64,000 bases of DNA, from the NCBI GenBank assembly GCA_029204225.1, contig CM055099.1:53270231-53334230 (forward strand), given 5' to 3'. The position numbers were made by a program, and so were the translations under genes. The notes under the pieces are model-generated. The model searched no databases. It was not told the origin of the DNA and saw nothing but the letters and a program-made list of their open reading frames with translations. Origin of the DNA: Diphasiastrum complanatum. Its lineage: Eukaryota; Streptophyta; Lycopodiopsida; Lycopodiales; Lycopodiaceae. This document shows positions 6,263 through 64,000 of the stretch, in pieces. Position 1 is the stretch's first letter. Each line of letters starts with the position of its first letter.

Positions 6263-7603
6263 CTGAATCCGTGAACGTCTTGATCTTCATACTAAGTAAT
6301 GCACAAAATTTGTTGTGTGCATTAACACTTAATGCTTTCGTGACTATGTCTACAACCATGTCCCGCATTCTGCAGTACGTTAAGCTCACCTTCTTGTTGA
6401 GAACCTTGCCCCTAATGTAGTGATATTTGATTTCAATGTGCTTACTCCTAGAGTGAAATCTAGGGTTGGACGATAAGCAATAACACTTTGACAATCACAA
6501 TATAAAATTTTAGAGCTGTACTGATACAGATTAACGTCTGACAGTAAATTTATCAGCCAAAATGCATCCTTAATAGATTGAGAAACAACAATGTATTCTG
6601 CTTCTATAGAAGAAAGTGCGATAGAGGTTTGCTTACAACTGTTCCATGAAATAGGACCGCCGTTGAAGAAGAATGTAAATCCAGATGTGGACTTATGATT
6701 GTCTACATCTCCTCCCTAGCTTGCATCAGAATATCCACTCAGCTGATGAAGATTGTCATTGCTGACATTTCCATAGTAAATGCACTGGTCCATGGTAGCT
6801 CGAATATATCTCATGACTCTTATGAGAGCCTTCCAATGGGTAATGCTAAGACTAGCCATATATTGGCTAAGTGAGGTTACTACAAAAGAGATATCTGGTT
6901 TTGTACAGACCATTGCGTACATGAGAGGTCGAAGTATCGATTGATAAGGATACTCTCTCATCTTCTCCTCTTCCTGCTTGGTCTAGGGACATTGGTCCTT
7001 TGATAAATGTAGGCCTGGATCCATCGGTGAGTGAGCTAATTTACAATTCATTAGATTGTATCTGTTAAGAACATTGTGAAGATACCTTTGTTGAGTGATG
7101 TAAATCAGTCGTTTCACTCTGTTTTTGTGGATTTGAATGCCCAAACAGAAGTGAGCTTCGTCCAGATCAGTCATGTCGAACTCTAAAAACAGCATCTGCT
7201 TCAAATCCTTGACCATATTGCTATTGTTGCTGAAGAGAAACATATCATCCACGTATAAGGTGATGATAATGAAGGATTGTTGCACTAACTTGGAATAGAC
7301 GTTGCAATCAGCAGTGCTTGGTTTGAATCCTTGTTCGATGAGGAATGTGTTGATTATCTGAAACCAAGCTTTGGCAGACTGTTTTAAGCCATAAAGTGCT
7401 TTGTGGAGTTTACAGACATGATTCTTCATACCTTCCAGAATGTATCCTTTGGGCCGGATCATGTAAATATCTTCTTGTATAACTCCATTCAGATAGGCTA
7501 TTTGTACATCAAGTTGATGTACTTTGAGATCGGCAGCTGTAGCATAAGACAGGAGCATTCAGATCGACGAATGTTTGACTACCGGACTAAAAGTCTCGAT
7601 GTA
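6258..7603 (-). pseudogene. B1 pol: reverse transcriptase and RNase H
   Basis: C-terminal half of a copia polyprotein. The RT part (about 7558-6983) shows HQLDVQIAYLNG, YGLKQS and the catalytic LYVDD intact. The RT tail and connection continue through 6716-6961. RNase H follows, with ALSSIEAEYI and the end of pol at 6258. Breaks: stop codons near 6980 and 6715, and further frame loss in RNase H. The RT start is cut off by the inverted segment at 7604-7999. The domain order and the GLKQ/YVDD spacing are typical of Ty1/copia, and the protein is very close to B2 and B3. It cannot make a full product as it stands. Confidence 0.9.
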
Positions 7604-7999
7604 GTCAAGACAACGCATTAGACGAAGATGTTGCTACTACCCAGCAACAAGTCCTAGGAGTGGTTCATCAGTCAAATCCTCTCAGAAGATCAAGCTAAGT
7701 GCGCACATAGCCCACAAGGTATACTCCTGAGTCTGCATGTCTCTTGATACAGAAACCAACTATAGTCGAAGAGGCACTCAGCCAACCAGACTCTGATCTA
7801 TGGAGAAAAGCTATGGATAGAGAGTACTCCTCTCTAATCAAGAACCAGACGTGGTCACTAGTCGAAGCTCCTATTGGTTGTAGTATAATTGATTACAAAT
7901 GGATCTTCAAGATCAAATACAATGCCAACGAAACAATTGATTGAAAGAAGGCAAGACTAGTAGCATGAGGATTCACTCAGATCTCCAACGAAGTGGGTT
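7604..7999 (+). mobile_element. Inverted internal segment of B1 (integrase-RT linker)
   Basis: This block reads on the plus strand (for example EEALSQPDSDLW and YKWIFKIKY, the start of copia RT), while everything on either side reads on the minus strand. The same block in B2 (about 24780-25170) is colinear with its neighbours. The junctions are near 7603 (after the TGTAGTC sequence) and near 8000 (before AAGTGGGTTGAC). It is therefore a local inversion of about 395 bp after insertion of B1. Confidence 0.88.
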
Positions 8000-9299
8000 G
8001 ACAATAAACATGCCCGACTCAGAAGCTCAGATAGTCGTGTCAATGGCAGGTGATGAAGGTTCTCTTGGAGCAATATCCTTGCGTTTGATATTGATGAACT
8101 GATCCTCGATAAAGACTGTTTTTCAGCTATACAAGATTTGCTAGGTATTAGGATCATACAACTTGTATGTATTATCAGATGAAGTATATCCAATCAGGAT
8201 GGTCTTCAGACCTTGGAAGTCCAGTTTCTTCCTCGTGTCTTTTGGGATCTGTGCGTAGGCAACACACCCAAACACTCTTAGGTTCTTCACAAAAGGCTTA
8301 GAGTCTGTCCACACCTCGTGGGGTGTCTTTCCAGAGAGGGCCTTGGTCCAACATCTGTTCTGGACGTAAGCTGCAGTGGAGACAGCTTCAGCTTATAATC
8401 TCTTGGGCAACGATGCATGCACTAGCATACATTTGGCAAATTCAACCAGGGTATGGTTCTTCCTCTTGACTAAGCCATTAGATTGAGAACTGTAAGGAGT
8501 GATGAATTGCTGCTCAATGTCTTGGCTTTGGCAGTACTCCTTAAACTCTATGGAGATATATTCTTCACCATTGTTTGATCTTAGAGCCTTAATCGTCCGT
8601 CCAGTCTCCTTTTCTACACGCTCCTTGAAGATTCTGAAGTATTTGAAGGCTTTTGATTTCTTCTTCATAAAATACACCATAGTCCTTCTGGAAAATTCAT
8701 CAATAAAAGTTATAAAATAATTTGCATCCTTCAGCGAAGGATTTTTCATCGGGCCACAAATGTCTAAATGTACAATGTCTAACAATCCTCTAGCCATATG
8801 CTGATGGCTTGATTTAAATGGTTTCCTAGTCTGTTTACCAACTAGACAAGCTTGACAAACAGGTAACTCGACTTTATCATGAGGATAGTTGAGATCAAGA
8901 ACAATAGATTGTCTAGACATTTGCTGTACAACAACATGATTCAAGTGACCAAGTCTATAATGCCAAAATAATTTTTTATTTGCATGAATATAAGTATTGA
9001 GCGCCTGACTAGAGGCAGAAAAACAATGACTTAATTTATACAAGTATTCATGTCTCTTTTCGGGTGCTAGGATCTTGCATGTCTTATCAACTACTTTACA
9101 CTGATCACATTTCAATTCTACTCTATGTCCTAGATATATGATTTAGCTTACAGAGAGCAGATTTGTAGACAAATTTGGTACATACAGGACTTTAGAAAGT
9201 AGCTTAGATTGATCATTTGCAAAGCTTAATCTTACAGTACCTTCACCTTTAATAGCTTGTGTGCTATTGTCGCCAAGGTGAACATATTTCTGGGTACTG
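8000..9299 (-). pseudogene. B1 pol: integrase, pre-integrase and end of protease
   Basis: From right to left: end of protease (about 9340-9143, with VHLGDNSTQAIKGEG and the LYVPNLSTNLLSVS end); GAG-pre-integrase (WHYRLGHLNH, then CQACLVGKQ) around 8990-8840; integrase core with HLDICGPM, FIDEFSR and NNGEEY (usually DNGGEY) to about 8393; then the integrase C-terminal region to about 8000. The catalytic D, D and E positions are partly kept, although the second motif is altered and the AERKNR-type motif reads VKRKNH. Stops near 9140 and 8395 and frame changes break it. The protease N-terminal half lies beyond element A at 14471-14600. Confidence 0.88.
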
Positions 9300-27769: not shown

Positions 27770-28413
27770 GGTATGTTTGTTGGAGAGAGATTTTCCAACT
27801 TCCTTTTTGGATATACAAGTTCATCTTCTAATGCATTTGGTCGAAGAAGTATCAATTGCAGAACCTGTGCACACGTGATGGATGTTCTACCTTGAGTGTT
27901 TTATGAAATTTTTGAAAGGCTTTGTGAGACAAAAGACAAGGTAGCATTGCAGAAGGTTGGATTGTACAAAAATCTATGTTTTATATCACCAAAATAATCT
28001 CACAATTGGATCATGCAAGTCCAAAAATGTGGTGTGAAAAAGAAGATGAACGTATTAAGGGTGAAGTACCACAAGGAATTGGTGTGCAAAAATGAATTTC
28101 ATCTCAATTAAAAGAGAAAATGGACACGTTCATAATATATAACTGTGGACAATTGGAAAAGTGGATTTCAAGGTATGAAGAAGACAAAAAGGAAAGAAAC
28201 ATAACATTGAAATGAAGAAGAAATATCAATCGAAGAAGAAGGAGAGCGTTGGAGAACGACAAACTTTTGGAGCCTTTACCTTCAAAAAACACTCGTGAAT
28301 GGATTTTTGATACATTAGAGAAAATATGGGCCCAAAGAGGGCCCTATAAGAAATGCCATAATCCATCATCCAGAGGAGGTCATAGAAAAAGACAAATCCG
28401 TGCATTCAAGTAG
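27770..28413 (+). pseudogene. CACTA transposase-associated DUF4218 relic
   Basis: The plus strand decodes as the DUF4218 domain found beside the transposase of plant CACTA (En/Spm) elements: LLERDFPTSFLDIQVHLLMH, HLVEEVSIAEPVH, WM, then after one frameshift near 27930 GSIAEGWIVQKS, and FIIYNCGQLEKWISRYEED further on. These match the family pattern of a FPPSFFD.M.HL.VHLVEE block followed by a PEGSIAEGYI-type block and a YNC..V block. At least three in-frame stops and a frameshift disable it. No CACTA terminal repeats were found. The identification rests on my recall of the family motif, but several blocks fall in the right order. Confidence 0.78.
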
Positions 28414-38544: not shown

Positions 38545-39335
38545 CAGTCAATAGTCGGATTGATCATGTATACCATGGTCTACACTAGACCTAATCATGT
38601 ATGCCATGGTACACTACACCTGATTAGTCAATAGTTGGATTGATCATGTATGCCATGGTCTACACTAGACTTGATTTAGCATTTACAATCAACACATTGT
38701 CATAGTTTATGTCAAATCCCGGACTACCTCACTAGAAGGCTCTACTCTGAGTATTGAGATACATTCAAGCCACTAAGCACTATGCTTTGTGTTATAATGG
38801 AAATACAGAGGATAGTCGAATTGATCATGTATACCATGGTCTACACTAGACCTGATCATGTATGTCATGGTACACTAGACCTAATCATGTATGCCATGGT
38901 ACACTACACCTGATTAGTCAATAGTTGGATTGATCATGTATGCCATGGTCTACACTAGACTTGATTTAGCATTTACAATCAACACATTGTCATAGTTTAT
39001 GTCAAATCCCGGACTACCTCACTAGAAGGCTCTACTCAGAGTATTGAGATACATTCAAGCCACTAAGCACTATGCTTTGTGTTATAATGGAAATACAGAG
39101 GATAGTCGGATTGATCATGTATACCATGGTCTACACTAGACCTGATCATGTATGTCATGGTACACTAGACCTGATCATGTATGCCATGGTACACTAGACT
39201 TGATTAGTCAATAGTCAGATTGATCATGTATGCCATGGTCTACACTAGACCTGATTAGTCAATAGTCGGATTGATCATGTATGCCATGGTCTAGACTAGA
39301 CCTGATTTAGCATTTACAGTCAACACATTGTCACA
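38545..39335 (+). repeat. Nested tandem repeat inside the RT of E
   Basis: Segments of about 260-290 bp beginning GATAGTCGGATTGATCATG recur at 38551, 38811 and 39101. Inside them, 30-60 bp subunits built on TGATCATGTATGCCATGGT...CACTAGACCTGAT recur about ten times. The subunit corresponds to the copia RT motif LIMYAMVYTRPD, so this is local amplification of a coding motif. Confidence 0.9.
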
Positions 39336-56310: not shown

Positions 56311-57471
56311 ATTTCTTTATCACATTCACATAGAGATCGATTCATTCGTGTTGGTTTGCATGAGTGTGTGTGGGCTTGCATGTTACCTTGTCAAGGGGGT
56401 CTAGATCTGAGTCGGAGTTGTATGTGTTTATGCATTTGCTACATCAAAAACAAAATAGTCATTTGATATGCTCTTTGACTTGTCATTATGTCTACTAGTT
56501 GTCTATCTGGTGAGGGTATAATGGTGGCAGTAAGATTTCCACAGGTTGAGCCTCAGTCGCTCACTTATGTCAGCTTTCAGTTTTGTGCTTGTAAGTGTCT
56601 GATAGGACGTCAGCCTATCTAGATGGAGGATGTAAGTCTCGTGGTGGCAGTGGGATCTCCTTAGTTTGATCCATGTCGCTCATGTGGTACACTTGTGTTT
56701 CAAGTTGGATGGGGATGAGTCAGTTGGTTGAGAGTGTGATAGACTCTCTATGTGAGCATCGTGTGTGCATGATACTTTGTGAGTGAAACCTGGTGGTTTG
56801 TTGGTGACAGGTGTGCTTGAGTGAGTCAAGTACAGGGTAGCAGGACATGCACAACATCTTTTGGATACTCCAGACATTGCTACAGTTTGTATTTCTTTAC
56901 TCTTATCACATTTGAGCTTAAGGGAGAGAGTTAAAAATCAGAGTTAATTTGATATACATTTTATAAACTTCAAATGTGATATTGTATTTAGTATACATTT
57001 AATTAGATTTACTGTATTTGCATTAGGGGATATTAGAACTCAAAATGGGCCCTTTGTCAAGATGTTGTTTTTGACTTCGCACACTTTCAATGCTTATGTG
57101 TCCCAATGAATGGTGTTCATCTGTGACGAACTGTAACAATAGTTGACGGACGGAAATTATATTTAACTTTCCTGTCCAAATTTTTGTAATTTTCAAGTAC
57201 CCCGCCGGTCTGAACAAACAATTGTGATTGGACCACAGTTACTGCCCAAATACTCTTATGATGCCCATCATTGTACACTCGAGGTTGATTTGACGTCAAT
57301 AGTCATAAATTGTAGTTAACTAATCCTTGTAGTTTAGGAACTTCTTGTCATTCATAGGTATACCTCTCATTTTCTTCATTCTATCTCTTATTTTGGATTT
57401 TCATTCTTAAGTTTACCTCTCAATCTCTACATTCTCTCCGTTCTCAGCTTGCGTACACATATTTTCGACTA
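56311..57471. other. Unassigned sequence, possible LTR start at 56920-56935
   Basis: No gene. TTAAGGGAGAGAGTTAAAAA at about 56918-56937 resembles the polypurine tract plus LTR start of element I (52444-52462), so an unrelated copia 3' LTR may begin here. The part after 57010 is probably the 5' flank of the following gene. Confidence 0.4.
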
Positions 57472-58328
57472 ATGGCTACACATAATCGGAGACCAAGAAA
57501 AACCATTGATGCAATAAATATTTGCAATGAAAAAAATGCAGAAGATCAATGGATACCAAGAATATATAAAAATATCAATGGATCTTGATGCATTCCTCTG
57601 CAAAAGGCTTATTTTGAAAAAGAAAAAGATCCAAAAACATATATAGAAGCTCTTGGAAAGGCAGGATGATGGATTTTAAAGTATCATCTACCGGTCAATC
57701 TATCACATAAGTTTTAGTTCAGCATGTTTTATCTTCACACTGAACTCAATATTCATGATTTGAATCCAAATGATAAAAGAAAATGCAATTGTAAGTTTCC
57801 AGATTCAATTTCTTTAGAGTTAGCATTTTCTTAAAATTATATATTTCTTGTGATGTTTTTGTTGGTTTTGCAGATTTGTATCCATCAAATTTCGTTGAAT
57901 GGCAAACAGTTCAATCGATTGTAGAAATAATCGATGTCATACATTCGGATATCGGTATTTTGCAATACAAAGGTCGTTCTGCAAAATCACTTTTAGAGTC
58001 AAAAGTTTTCTATTATGATCACACCTATTTTCTTGATAAAAATGGTTTAGTTGGTAGATTAGAGCCATATCCTCTACCAGATTTTTCGAGTGAGAATTGG
58101 ATTTCTCCCGATGCAGCAATTTCAGAAAGTTTTCGATCTATGTTATATATTGATATTCAAAGTATATTAAAATGTAGCACTGGACCAAATAATAATAGAT
58201 TAAGTTGGTATCTACCTTTTACTATTTTTGTTGATTTTTTTTTCCAAATGCAATGTTCGGAGAACGAAAACAATGTGATATATTTCTATAAAAAATTTAT
58301 GTACATGTGTTTCATCCACATCAAGTGA
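57472..58328 (+). pseudogene. Unrecognised two-exon gene, decayed
   Basis: Start ATG at 57472 (MATHNRRPRKTIDAINICNE). Exon 1 (57472-57790) is in one frame with stops at 57596, 57667 and 57715. The first two are TGA and fit CGA-to-TGA decay. An 83-bp intron (57791-57873) has consensus GTAAGT and TTTTGCAG ends, and restores the frame exactly (phase 1). Exon 2 (57874-58328) is fully open (YPSNFVEWQTVQSIVEIIDV, LPDFSSENWISPDAAISESF), about 150 codons, and ends with TGA. No family recognised. It has no transposase or pol motif. It converges on the H3/Ulp1 gene, with 19 bp between the stop codons. Confidence 0.6.
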
Positions 58329-58777
58329 GATGAACTTTTTATCATTATCAACTATCTATGATCTCTAAATCCATTTCTCCAGTTGGAAGTAGCTTGGGTG
58401 GAGAACACTTTGCCACTGCAACTGGATATGAATTTTCGATCACAAGCTTTATGGTCTCCTGCCTGAAGTGCATTATCTCCATTGGGGAGACCTTCGGACA
58501 TTTAAACTGAAAAAAATATAAACACAATTAAATGTTATTAATCAAAAATAGTTATTAGGAATTTAATCATGAAAAGGAAAACAAAAACACAATTAAATGT
58601 TATTAATCGAAGATTATCTCTTCTAGATTAGGAAGTTCATCTTGTAGTGCAAGCCAGTTGAAAAAAGTGTTTGGCATTGCATATTATATACCAACCACAG
58701 TTGATAGAATCAACCTGCTGGGAGGACTGCAGTATCCAATATAAACAAAAGTTAGTAATAAAATTTTAACATTATGA

Positions 58778-58847
58778 AATATCGGATCAACGCGCAGGAT
58801 GTTATAATAAAATTTTCAACAGAATGAGTACGCGTCGAACCGATATC
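58778..58847. repeat. Inverted-arm unit 1 (intron 2)
   Basis: 70 bp: left arm AATATCGGATCAACGCGCA, unrelated spacer of about 33 bp, right arm CGTCGAACCGATATC. The arms are near-complementary (AATATCGG / CCGATATT). It lies within intron 2 of the H3/Ulp1 gene. Confidence 0.85.
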
Positions 58848-58863
58848 CAAAAAATATTATTTG

Positions 58864-58934
58864 AATATCGGATCAGCACGCACGATATAAAAATAAACCA
58901 AACAACAACTACAAGGGCCCGTCGAACCGATATT
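58864..58934. repeat. Inverted-arm unit 2 (intron 2)
   Basis: 71 bp: AATATCGGATCAGCACGCA, different spacer, CGTCGAACCGATATT. It is 16 bp from unit 1 in the same orientation and ends 12 bp from the donor of intron 2. Confidence 0.85.
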
Positions 58935-60049
58935 GATAAATTTTTACCTCTGCATCAACCATTTTCAGTTTCGTATATGCTATTACATTTGGTACTGGAA
59001 AGAGCTCCAGTATTTTTTGGATATGGCTCTTGGCAATTTTGTGTGTGTGTGTGTATAATAGAGTTCATCTTTAAACAAATTGGATTATACACACCCTCAT
59101 CATTGACATATAAGGACAATACATATAAGCTCCAATGATCACTGCAATCAGAAAACAATAAATTTATGAGAATCAATGTGAAATCAAAATTCATATGAAA
59201 AATTCAATTTAATAAAATCTAAAAAAATACACTTACTTTGTTGTGTATGGGAGCACGAGAATTGGAGTCCCCAGTCTGACGTATTGGAGCATATCACTGT
59301 GCAGAATTTTGAAATCAAGGAAATCAAATGCAGCCATGAATTTAAGGGGAAACAATGCTACATCTATAAACAATGGGGTTTGGAAAAACTCCATCTAGTA
59401 CTAAATTGTCCCACCTCCTGCATTGTCATCTAGCATTTTATCCCTACTTTCTAATTCACCTGTATCTAATTTTGAAAGGGGAAGACCAGCATTCGTCTTC
59501 GGCATCTTAAAACTGTATCGAGGACCTAAAGCTGTAAGATATGTATTTAACAATTGTTCATACTGTACATATTGAGGACTATTTACAAAGGCAAGTGTAG
59601 GGGGTGACAGAAGTAATACAGATAAACCACAAAAAGAATCGTCATTCAAAATTGATTCTACCTTTAAATTTACAAAATCATCTAAATCATTTCCTAGAAC
59701 AGGAGATGGGGAAATAATATTTGTGGGGTTAGAAGGAGACTGAGATTTTGAAGGAGGAGGAGATTTATTAGGAGAAGAAGACTTAGCAAGAGAAGATAAA
59801 GATGGAGTTGTTGGAGGAGAAGAAGGAGACTTGGGAGGAGATTGCCTAGCAGATAGAATCTCAACCAGAGGAGATGGCTTTGAAAAATCCCTCGCTTTAT
59901 TAGGAGGGTCATGAGACCTCCTTTTCTTTGAAACACTCCTGCTCTGTACTCGAAAAACAAGCCGGGATGGTTGAAAGTGCTTTCGTTTTCTCTTCTTTGA
60001 ATCGTGTTTTGGAGGAGAGGAAGGAGCAGGTCTAAAGTCTCTGCAAATT

Positions 60050-60455
60050 TGTCATATGTGTCCCATAGCCTGAACACAATGTTGAAATCCTTGGACATGA
60101 TGGTCACCCTCTTGGCATGGATAGCTGCAACAATAGTATCTGAAAAAAATTTCATTTGGAAATCCTCATATGCAGTGTGCAGCGCCTCTATTGCCGTTAC
60201 AGTCCATCTCACATCTGTAGATAGACTTCTTGTAACCTGTCTGATGGATCTCTGTATGTGAGCTTTCAGAATCAAAAGATTATTGGTCTTCTGTAGCTTC
60301 CGAATATCCTTGAGCCAAGGTGGGTCTCTTCTTCTGCCCCTTGACTTAGGAGGAGGTGGTGGCGGACGAGGCGATGGTGGTGCATTTCCTTGACCCCCTC
60401 CCGTGATTGGGATTCCACTAGGGTGCACTCGTGTTGTTTGCTTAGTCTGCACCAT
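60050..60455 (-). other. Histone H3-like domain
   Basis: N-terminus VQTKQTTR parallels the H3 tail ARTKQTAR, with K4 kept and K9 replaced. A proline run and KSRGRRR follow. The fold begins LKDIRKLQKTNNLLI (H3: LREIRKYQKSTELLI), then RSIRQVTRSLSTDVRW, EALHTAYEDF, FSDT and IHAKRVTIM, which is identical to H3, then SKDF. Loop 1 has the canonical H3 length. Tryptophan 84 sits where CENP-A/CenH3 proteins have W and canonical H3 has F. The H3 C-terminal RRIRGERA is replaced. The resemblance extends over the whole fold. Confidence 0.85.
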
Positions 60456-60463
60456 TAGTGTCC

Positions 60464-60525
60464 AATATCAGATCAGCGCGTGAAGAAGAAGAACTCAGGA
60501 TCAGAAGTCAGGTCGAATCGATATC
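60464..60525. repeat. Inverted-arm unit 3 (5' UTR)
   Basis: 62 bp: AATATCAGATCAGCGCG, a GAAGAAGAAG-containing spacer, GGTCGAATCGATATC. It ends 8 bp upstream of the H3/Ulp1 start codon. Confidence 0.8.
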
Positions 60526-60678
60526 TAAATTTAACCAAATCGATAGCTGGTAGCGGATGGGTGTGCACGAGTAAAAGTGGAATGTAGGAAGGTTGCTTTG
60601 AACGAGCTGAATTGATATTGCATGGAAGTAGAGAACAGTAAAAACTTTAAGCAAAAATTTTTCAGCGTCGTCCATCTG

Positions 60679-60689: not shown

Positions 60690-61107
60690 AAAATCTGAAA
60701 TGATTGCATACATGGTGGTTTGGATGTCCGAGGCTCGGATTACGCTGATAATTACTTTGAGATATTCAGAGGCTTGTCAATCAAATCAAACCAAATATCC
60801 ATCTTTCATCAAAATGATTAGTCGATAATAACGACCCCAATTAATTTCTACAAAAGTATGGTCACATCTACAATTTATTGCTGAAATTGACAAGATTAAG
60901 CTATAAATATCTGACCTTTTTTTATATCCAATCATTATAATTTCGAAAAATTGCAAAGGCCATTATTTCACCCAATAGCAAATCGACGCGCATATACTGC
61001 ATGTGTAAAGCAGAGGTGCTATTCTCGTGCATTGAACCGATATTGGACAGAATATGAATGATCAGAGCTTGACTCGATAGATTCTACATATCTTTGGACA
61101 GTATGAA
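60690..61107. other. 5' flank of the H3/Ulp1 gene
   Basis: AT-rich, with no coding sequence. Contains unit 4 and ends at the LTR of B3. Confidence 0.55.
60974..61044. repeat. Inverted-arm unit 4 (upstream flank)
   Basis: 71 bp: AATAGCAAATCGACGCGCA, unrelated spacer, CATTGAACCGATATT. The most diverged copy, about 290 bp upstream of the candidate TATA box. Confidence 0.75.
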
Positions 61108-62342: not shown

Positions 62343-64000
62343 CCCCCCTTCCCCTTAATCTGGATCCGTGAATGCCTTGATCTTCAAACTAAGCAATGCA
62401 CAAAATTTGTTGTGTGCATTAACACTTAATGCTTTTGTGAATATATCTGCAACCTTGTCCTGCGTTCTGCAGTACATTAAGCTCACCTCCTTGTTGAGAA
62501 CCTTGCCCCTGATGTAGTGATATCTGATTTCAATGTACTTACTCCTAGAGTGAAATCTAGGGTTGGATTATAAGGCAATAGCACTTTGATTATCACAGAA
62601 TAAAATTGTAGGGTTGTATTAATACTAATTAACGTCTGACAGTAAATTTTTCAACCAAAATGATTTTTTAATAGATTGAGAAGCAGCAATGTATTCTGCT
62701 TCTGTAGAAGAAAGTGCAATAGAGGTTTGCTTACGATTGTTCCATGAGATAGGACCGTCGTTGAAGAAGAATATAAATCCAAATGTGGACTTACGATTGT
62801 CTACATCCCCTTCCCAGCTTGCATCAGCATATCCACTGAGCTGATGAAGATTGTCGTTGCTGACATCTCCATAGCAGATGCACTGGTCCATGGTAGCTCG
62901 AATATATCTCATGACTCTTATGAGAGCCTTCCAATGGGTAATGCCAAGATTAGCCATATATTGGCTGAGTGAGCTTATTGCAAAAGAGATATCTGGTCTT
63001 GTACAAACCATTGCATACATGAGAGATCCAAGTATCGATCGATAAGGATACTTTCTCATCTGCTTCTCTTCCTGTTTGGTTTGGGGACATTGGTCCTTTG
63101 ACAAATACAGGCCTAGATCCATCAGGTAGTGAGCTAATTTACAATTGATTAGATTGTATATGTTAAAAACATTGTGAATATATTTCTGTTGAGTGATGTA
63201 AATCAGTCGTCTCGCTCTGTCTCTATGGATCTCTGAATGTCCAAACAGAAGTGAGCTTCATCCAAATCAGTCATGTCAAACTCTGAAAACAGCATTTGCT
63301 TAGAATCCTTGACCAAATTGGTACCAATTGTTGCTGAAGAGCAACATATCATCCACGTATAAGGTGATGATAATGAAGGATTGTTGCATGGACTTGGAAT
63401 AGACGTTGCAATCAGCAATGCTTGGTTTGAATCCTTGTTCGATGAAGAATGTGTTGATTCTCTAAAACCAAGCTTTGGTAGACTGTTTCAAGCCGTAAAG
63501 TGCTTTGTGGAGTTTACAGACATGATTCTTCATACCTTCCAGAACGTATCCTTCGGGCCAGATCATGTAGATATCTTCTTGTATAACTCCATTCAGATAG
63601 GCTGTTTGTACATCAAGTTGATGTACTTCAAGGTTGGCAGCTGTAGCATAAGACATGAGCATTCGGATCGACAAATGTTTGACTACTGGACTGAAAGTCT
63701 CGCTGTAGTCAACGTTGGAGATATGAGTGAATCCTCGTGCTACTAGTCTTGCCTTCCTTCAATCAATTGTTCCGTTGGCATTGTATTTGATCTTGAAGAT
63801 CCATTTGCAATCAATTATATTGCAGCCAATAGGAGCTTCGACTAGTGACCACGTCTGGTTCTTGATCAGAGAGGAGTACTCTCTGTCCATAGCTTTTCTC
63901 CATAGATCAGAGTCTGGTTGGCTGAGTGCCTCTTCGACTGTAGTCGGTTCCTATATCAAGAGACATGCAGACTCAGGAGTATACCTTGTGGGCTATGTGC
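62343..64000 (-). pseudogene. B3 pol: linker, reverse transcriptase, RNase H (partial)
   Basis: The linker and RT start (EEALSQPDSDLW, YKWIFKIKY) are at 63960-63770. RT is at about 63760-63203: AAANLEVHQLDVQTAYLNG, HKALYGLKQSTKAWF, YVDD intact near 63350, and a small insertion with frameshift near 63330. The RT end and RNase H form one open stretch 63122-62625: GLYLSKDQCPQT, SILGSLMYAMVCTRPDIS, SGYADASWEGDVDNRKS, ALSSTEAEYIAAS. The final RNase H segment to 62357 is broken by stops. It continues beyond the window, where integrase, protease and gag would lie. Confidence 0.9.

Follow-up and report, generated by a model that had tools for sequence, protein, structure and literature searches.

The stretch of DNA analysed here (64,000 nucleotides, hereafter the window) almost certainly carries a decayed copy of a four-exon gene that encodes a histone H3 joined to a C48 protease domain and that belongs to a family of elements bordered by terminal inverted repeats (TIRs), with both domains under constraint between its subfamilies. 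The H3-C48 order is not a product of chance, because it recurs unbroken elsewhere in the host genome inside a repeated mobile element. From these unbroken copies it appears that a transposon makes its own enzyme-tagged histone.

The H3-C48 gene copy in the window

The H3 part of the window copy matches the Pfam Histone profile (E 1.3e-21) and solved H3 chains in the PDB (best E 7.7e-18). An AlphaFold2 model of the window H3 places helices at residues 46-56, 64-77, 86-113 and 121-133 (mean pLDDT 72.9), which as modelled is the aN/a1/a2/a3 pattern, and the PDB matches listed for this model by Foldseek were H3 chains of nucleosomes or related complexes. Residues H113, R116 and D123 were invariant across 15 rows comprising the window and database proteins; P0013-P0017 were used solely as rows of the alignment underlying the fold model. 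With its histone fold, H3 aN helix and HAKRVTIM-KD region, the domain is an H3.

Downstream on the same strand, the protease motifs HWSLYV, KMNS and NCG start at 59140, 59071 and 58702, respectively. Neither the separate C48 pieces of the window nor their joined sequence matched a Pfam family, and the identity of the pieces rests on tblastn and tblastx alignments to an intact relative that is itself above the Pfam cut-off (tblastn 40%, E 0.002 for exon 2; 65%, E 1e-6 for exon 3). Exon 4 of the window gave no significant tblastn match to the intact exon 4. Introns 1 and 2 are common by position to the window and to the intact genes of the element family (family B, below), and a third acceptor is likely. 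The window copy is a pseudogene, since every frame of exon 1 has stops and exon 2 is shifted at a (CA)n run.

The preliminary description of this DNA had placed an H3 tail and fold, a basic P/S-rich linker and the HWSLYV and NCG protease motifs on one strand, and had assigned them to one intron-containing gene with small lesions. The H3 assignment was borne out by Pfam, the PDB and AlphaFold2, the motifs lie where it put them, with GT-AG introns at 59236-59142 and 58947-58727, and lesions were found.

Table 1. Coordinates of the fusion gene copy, its neighbours and related element genes (window positions unless a locus is named).
Feature	Position	Strand	Evidence
Window in the host assembly	G000:C8:53270231-53334230		
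H3-C48 gene copy, whole	60455-58351	-	
Exon 1: H3, basic/P-S-rich linker and middle segment, C48 start; stops and frame-shifts	59237..60455	-	
H3 domain of 134 aa with its short N-terminal tail (MVQTKQTTR...); frame open	60054..60455	-	Pfam, PDB, AlphaFold2 and Foldseek
Linker and middle segment, frame differs from H3 frame	59404-60051	-	
Intron 1, GT...AG; position as in intact family-B genes	59142..59236	-	
Exon 2: HWSLYV (catalytic His) and KMNS motif; (CA)n run shifts frame	58948..59141	-	
Intron 2, GT...AG; position as in family B	58727..58947	-	
Exon 3: QQVDSINCGWY (oxyanion Gln, catalytic Cys); 3' end of exon uncertain	58600..58726	-	
Exon 4, C-terminal part, stop at 58351	58351..58506	-	Position, AG acceptor and open frame only
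Gene Y, convergent neighbour, decayed; homologue of L016:6539-7709(-)	57472..58328	+	tblastn, tblastx, reading frames, position of start codon
Element end-like sequence	57021..57063	+	29/43 bases equal to family-B right TIR
Copia-type polyprotein pieces, adjoining the element and not part of it	62355..64000	-	
Gene X of the intact element	L016:2137-3879	-	
Gene Y of the intact element	L016:6539-7709	-	
Gene Y relative in family A	L010:1656-2854		

Intact relatives and the element that carries them

A Pfam Histone profile search of the host assembly (1.74 Gb, apparently that of a plant, judging by its size and Copia content) yielded at least 153 matches; its first look had flagged 6,325 candidates, and 150 of these were scored. 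By score, the first 13 rows are near-canonical H3. Lower-scoring H3-like rows of all families combined are spread over every one of contigs C1-C23 as well as over smaller contigs, and among the matches listed no single cluster was evident by eye. Forty places were sampled, 20 of them picked for long open frames and biased accordingly, the other 20 taken non-randomly from further down the list. They comprised 22 members of one family (family A), three A-like places, 13 members of a second family (family B, the H3-C48 fusion), one place of the L024 type and one genuine intron-bearing H3.

Six family-B loci fell in the long-open-frame sample. Exon 1 ran uninterrupted from the H3 start into C48 in five of them (324-329 aa by our own count), and exons 2-4 were present in five of the six; L011 retained exon 4 only in part and L026 had none of exons 2-4. 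Two of the five loci with exons 2-4, L016 and L022, are lesion-free, each encoding a 470-aa protein in four exons separated by three GT-AG introns. Both proteins exceed the curated Pfam cut-offs for Histone (26.4 bits) and Peptidase_C48 (20.7 bits), with 97.3 bits (1e-27) and 42.2 bits (1e-10) for L016 and 94.2 bits (9e-27) and 39.9 bits (5e-10) for L022; the broken pieces of the window stay below the Peptidase_C48 cut-off. L016 and L022 are also the unbroken paralogues with the same domain order that the preliminary description had proposed looking for in the host genome. In the second sample, at least four (L056, L057, L059 and L065) of the seven family-B rows, each covering ~0.75 kb, had stops or shifts.

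These loci bear on the suspicion that two adjacent unrelated genes, or an assembly join, were read as one. Such an artefact would fit the different frames of the H3 and C48 parts in the window, but it has a negligible probability: the continuous exon 1, albeit in loci chosen for long open frames, speaks against it, and for the family it is refuted by the two full intact genes.

The element at L016 spans 8,681 bp between perfect 35-bp TIRs (CATTAGAGGAGTTCTCAATATCAAAAAGACCCTTT). A second full copy, at L022, has ends that differ from those of L016 at a few bases; the two align from sharp end to sharp end, with an extra insertion in L022. Ends related to CATTAGAGGAGTTCTCAATATCAAAAAGACCCTTT were found at L015, L023, L024, L026, L032, L034 and L039. 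At L016 a putative transposase comes first and the H3-C48 gene third, both on the plus strand; gene X lies between these two and gene Y comes last, both on the minus strand. The transposase was assigned from its position and from CxxC and GxE-like motifs seen by eye; Pfam returned no family at E 10 for its joined reading frames, and none above cut-off for the putative transposase, gene X or gene Y. An early idea that gene Y contains a BAH domain found no support in Pfam. Gene Y is conserved between families A and B, and in family A its end gave a weak PB1 signal (0.052). A family-A counterpart of gene X was suspected by eye only.

The element family is DNA transposon-like, with many dispersed copies in the host genome. 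No target-site duplication flanks either of the two complete copies (L016 and L022), and in further copies searched for such duplications at most one element end was found per copy. Typical CACTA elements end in CACTA, and Mutator elements have long TIRs and 9-bp target-site duplications. The element fits neither description: the ends found here begin CATTAG, no target-site duplication was seen and no transposase was recognised by Pfam. The preliminary description had offered a transposon-borne origin as one of its readings, and this side of it is upheld by the inverted-repeat ends, the dispersed copies and the conserved neighbour genes. Its other reading, a deSUMOylase-like domain tethered to nucleosomes, is a conjecture, and the Asp of the Ulp1 triad is not conserved in place (below).

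At L024, an H3-linker remnant cut before C48 (4440-5619) lies near an inverted element end and is followed by a second decayed H3-C48 copy (7500-8620), an arrangement that reads as a nested insertion or rearrangement.

Outside this assembly, none of the protein-database matches (4 of 142 candidates; 13 of 4,565) had both H3 and C48, and a C48 domain was given for no match in the search tables. P0001-P0003, P0005-P0008 and P0011 were rejected as foreign fusions, being canonical or near-canonical H3 with unrelated or duplicated sequence, as were P0004, P0009 and P0012, which are more divergent H3 with other extensions. P0010, from another data source, is a related H3 with a long C-terminal extension; it was not counted as an H3-C48 fusion because the extension has no significant alignment to that of the fusion (best E 1.4 and 2.6) and no Pfam C48 match. 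IMG/VR scans with exon 1 of L016 and with P0010 found no relatives. The fusion is known here from the one host genome.

Histone relationships, constraint and possible action on chromatin

In a tree of 20 rows and 92 columns, in which the CENH3 rows were entered by hand and P0010 and CENP-A were flagged as long branches, the window, L024a, P0010 and the two family-B subfamilies (B1: L011, L016, L022, L023 and L026; B2: L015, L056, L060 and L066) formed one group with support of 99/96. This group stood apart from host H3, from family A and from the hand-entered CENH3 rows. Family A is a second repeated element family, in which a long Q/P-rich insert precedes the histone fold. Its H3 begins MSEEMARTKQTAR, with small variants, in 13 of 13 family-A loci of the long-open-frame sample (L009, L010, L012-L014, L017-L021, L025, L027 and L028), and no C48 match was found in these 13. 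We claim no TIR for family A, because the TIR-like site at L017:8944 is directed away from the family-A copy. Three further diverged H3-like rows (L053, L067 and L069) group with family A in the tree, which suggests that several element lineages carry an H3.

The tails of five lineages (window, A, B, L024 and P0010) were compared by eye, that of family A being read from the inner Met of MSEEMARTKQTAR. Only L024 has K4 replaced; the other four lineages retain it. At K9, P0010 alone retains the lysine, whereas the window has V, A and B each have D, and L024 has A. The ARKS motif around K27 is absent from all five.

Selection ratios were calculated from pairs that are not independent, with codons containing stops skipped. 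Between B1 and B2, dN/dS was 0.12 over the histone fold, 0.26 over the tail, 0.46 over the linker and 0.54 over the middle segment. Comparison of L015 with B1 gave a pN/pS of 0.21 for exons 2-4, and with each B1 copy a ratio of 0.26-0.30 for exon 1. Among the five B1 copies exon 1 is near neutrality (pairwise 0.54-1.37), as expected of dead copies after a burst, and exons 2-4 have a pN/pS of 0.44. The H3 fold gave 0.52 within B1 and 0.18 within B2, and the non-fold parts, with few changes, 0.56 to 4.5 within the two subfamilies. The contrast between these ratios within subfamilies and the low values between subfamilies over the histone fold (0.12) and the protease exons (0.21) suggests that, in transposing lineages, both the H3 and the C48 half were preserved at the protein level.

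This bears on plain gene capture, in which a transposon picked up host H3 and host protease genes and their fusion was of no consequence at any time. Transposons commonly capture host genes, and the drift of recent copies would agree with plain capture. There is also a fungal precedent: hAT transposons captured histone H3 in Pseudocercospora fijiensis and relatives, and H3 amplification is described in Pyrenophora tritici-repentis, in the part of the report available (PMC6710886). Plain capture is already disfavoured and very improbable here, however, as both halves are constrained between subfamilies instead of having a dN/dS near 1, divergent copies share intron positions and a neighbour gene, and the element H3 lies far from host H3 in the tree. 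The fungal case resembles the present one in that H3 reached a high copy number, through a TIR transposon in the case of P. fijiensis. It differs in that the P. fijiensis copies are, as far as that part of the source goes, intronless captures of host H3, inactivated by RIP and without Ulp1 (PMC6710886); here a divergent H3 clade is fused to C48, has introns in the C48 half and is constrained between subfamilies. The words 'fused' and 'Ulp1' do not occur in the PMC6710886 text.

The C48 half of the fusion aligned weakly (E 0.001 to 0.01) with solved Ulp1-like proteases, including yeast Ulp1 and SENP2. In this comparison His, Gln and Cys are in register, and all three are retained in both intact copies; the Asp of the triad is not in place, so the enzyme may be inactive. 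The Asn of the shared KMNS motif is a candidate third catalytic residue, and a Cys-His-Asn triad instead of Cys-His-Asp is possible. In one of two main rival explanations, which we consider unlikely, the C48 domain has lost catalysis and reads SUMO on a variant nucleosome, or the protein acts as a dominant-negative histone whose tail, for want of K9 and K27, upsets silent chromatin. The Asp not being kept in place would fit such a decoy, as would the replacement of K9 in four of the five tail lineages and the absence of ARKS from all five. Against it stand the catalytic His, Gln and Cys of both intact copies and the pN/pS of 0.21 over the exons that hold them, as expected of an active site; furthermore, the third residue is Asn in papain-type proteases.

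The explanation that we favour, taking the established structure together with the proposed action, is that the element probably encodes a chromatin-tethered SUMO-protease-like factor. The details of how the protein would act on chromatin are put forward with guarded confidence. Through its H3 part it would be built into nucleosomes or attach to them, either at the element or across the genome, given that H113, R116 and D123 are kept in the window and that C-terminal tags on H3 are tolerated in practice. The C48 part would then remove or bind SUMO-like modifiers on nearby chromatin proteins, such that chromatin of the element would be harder to silence or nucleosomes bearing the protein harder to strip. 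With no K27 motif in the tail and, for the most part, no K9, although K4 is mostly kept, nucleosomes containing the element H3 could not be marked at the K9/K27 silencing sites, and a nucleosome that brings its own protease and lacks both sites would resist silencing or eviction. A more specific proposal is tentative and rather doubtful: that a plant DNA transposon lineage builds its own silencing-resistant and self-protecting nucleosomes from a K27-less, mostly K9-less H3 and a SUMO protease, and that family A might do likewise with its Q/P-rich insert replacing the protease (a 'bring your own chromatin' counter-defence). In plants, according to the available part of PMC12903445, SUMO modifies chromatin proteins including centromere factors, SUMO cycling has been described, and CDC48 reportedly removes CENH3 that is SUMOylated.

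The second main rival, a transposition co-factor, is about as unlikely as the decoy. Here, the H3 would guide insertion to chosen chromatin, possibly centromeric, and C48 would process the transposase or repair factors. The position of the H3-C48 gene in the full element, with the putative transposase to one side and gene Y to the other, is in keeping with this, as is the recurrence of Ulp1 domains in Ginger1 and Mutator, for which a role in transposition has been suggested (PMC2836005, available in part). The spread of H3-like rows over all of C1-C23 (all families; no single cluster by eye) and the separation of the H3 clade from plant CENH3 (a short tree with hand-entered CENH3 rows) argue against it.

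Several components of the favoured reading, a transposon-encoded SUMO-protease-like factor on chromatin, have counterparts in known systems. Transposon proteins that act on host chromatin marks, like the protein proposed here, include the VANC anti-silencing proteins of VANDAL and the TET/JBP genes of KDZ transposons; we know of no histone-protease fusion among them. Plant CENH3 is likewise a divergent H3 with an altered tail; inspection by eye showed loop 1 of family B to be longer by one residue, and a Trp close to that place in the window copy. Unlike CENH3, the element H3 falls outside the hand-entered CENH3 rows in the tree, is fused to C48 and is borne by a transposon.

Ulp1-bearing DNA transposons, which the preliminary description had given as background, are in print: Mutator elements of Arabidopsis, melon, rice, maize, hydra and lancelet and Ginger1 of Hydra are listed in the part of PMC2836005 available. 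As here, these are DNA transposons with TIRs that encode a Ulp1-type C-terminal catalytic domain. In Ginger1, however, Ulp1 ends the transposase (PMC2836005, same part), whereas here it forms the C-terminal half of an H3 protein, and in contrast to both Mutator and Ginger1 the present element has no Pfam transposase match above cut-off and has ends that begin CATTAG. Viral histones are a further case in which a non-host genetic element encodes a histone fused to another domain; unlike the present protein they are viral and many are doublets to quadruplets, and 'protease' has no occurrence in the text of that source, available in part (PMC9145170). Ulp1 in transposons, H3 captured by fungal hAT elements and viral histones are therefore already in print. 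Among the matches listed in open PMC text, neither an H3-C48 fusion nor a transposon histone under constraint came to light, in agreement with the preliminary description, which knew of no described fusion of this kind.

A histone-protease fusion that stayed under constraint in diverged subfamilies would represent a transposon investing in its own nucleosome component. It is a natural protein joining a SUMO-protease-like domain to a histone. It also makes it possible to ask directly whether an element can work from within the nucleosome against silencing based on H3K9/K27 and SUMO. In genomes of this kind, element-borne H3 can also swamp H3 gene counts and searches for CENH3.

Surroundings of the window copy

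Two parts of the family-B element lie at their expected places beside the window copy. The window gene Y matches that of L016 by tblastn (1e-11 to 1e-21), and ~450 bp beyond its start lies the end-like sequence, which had the top score over all window positions on both strands (next best 25). The transposase of the family-B element was not found in the window by tblastn, and the left element end turned up neither there nor in the 6 kb that follow; Copia sequence intervenes where the left end was sought. With gene Y and the end-like sequence present and the transposase and left end not found, the window copy reads as belonging to a related element whose right half is the same, the copy itself having diverged and been truncated or interrupted.

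Two related short repeats with ~85 bp spacing and AATATCGGWTCRRCGCG-like ends lie inside intron 2 (58778-58946). Traces of such repeats were made out by eye around the start codon, near 60463-60540 and near 61050, and together they possibly constitute a small MITE family. Further away, positions 28313-28344 resemble CATTAG-type ends (27/43 bases to the end-like sequence at L017:8944) and may be the end of a further element. The window also contains a tandem array at 38561-39256 with 290-bp and 29-bp periods, rich in ATCATGTATGCCATGGTACAC.
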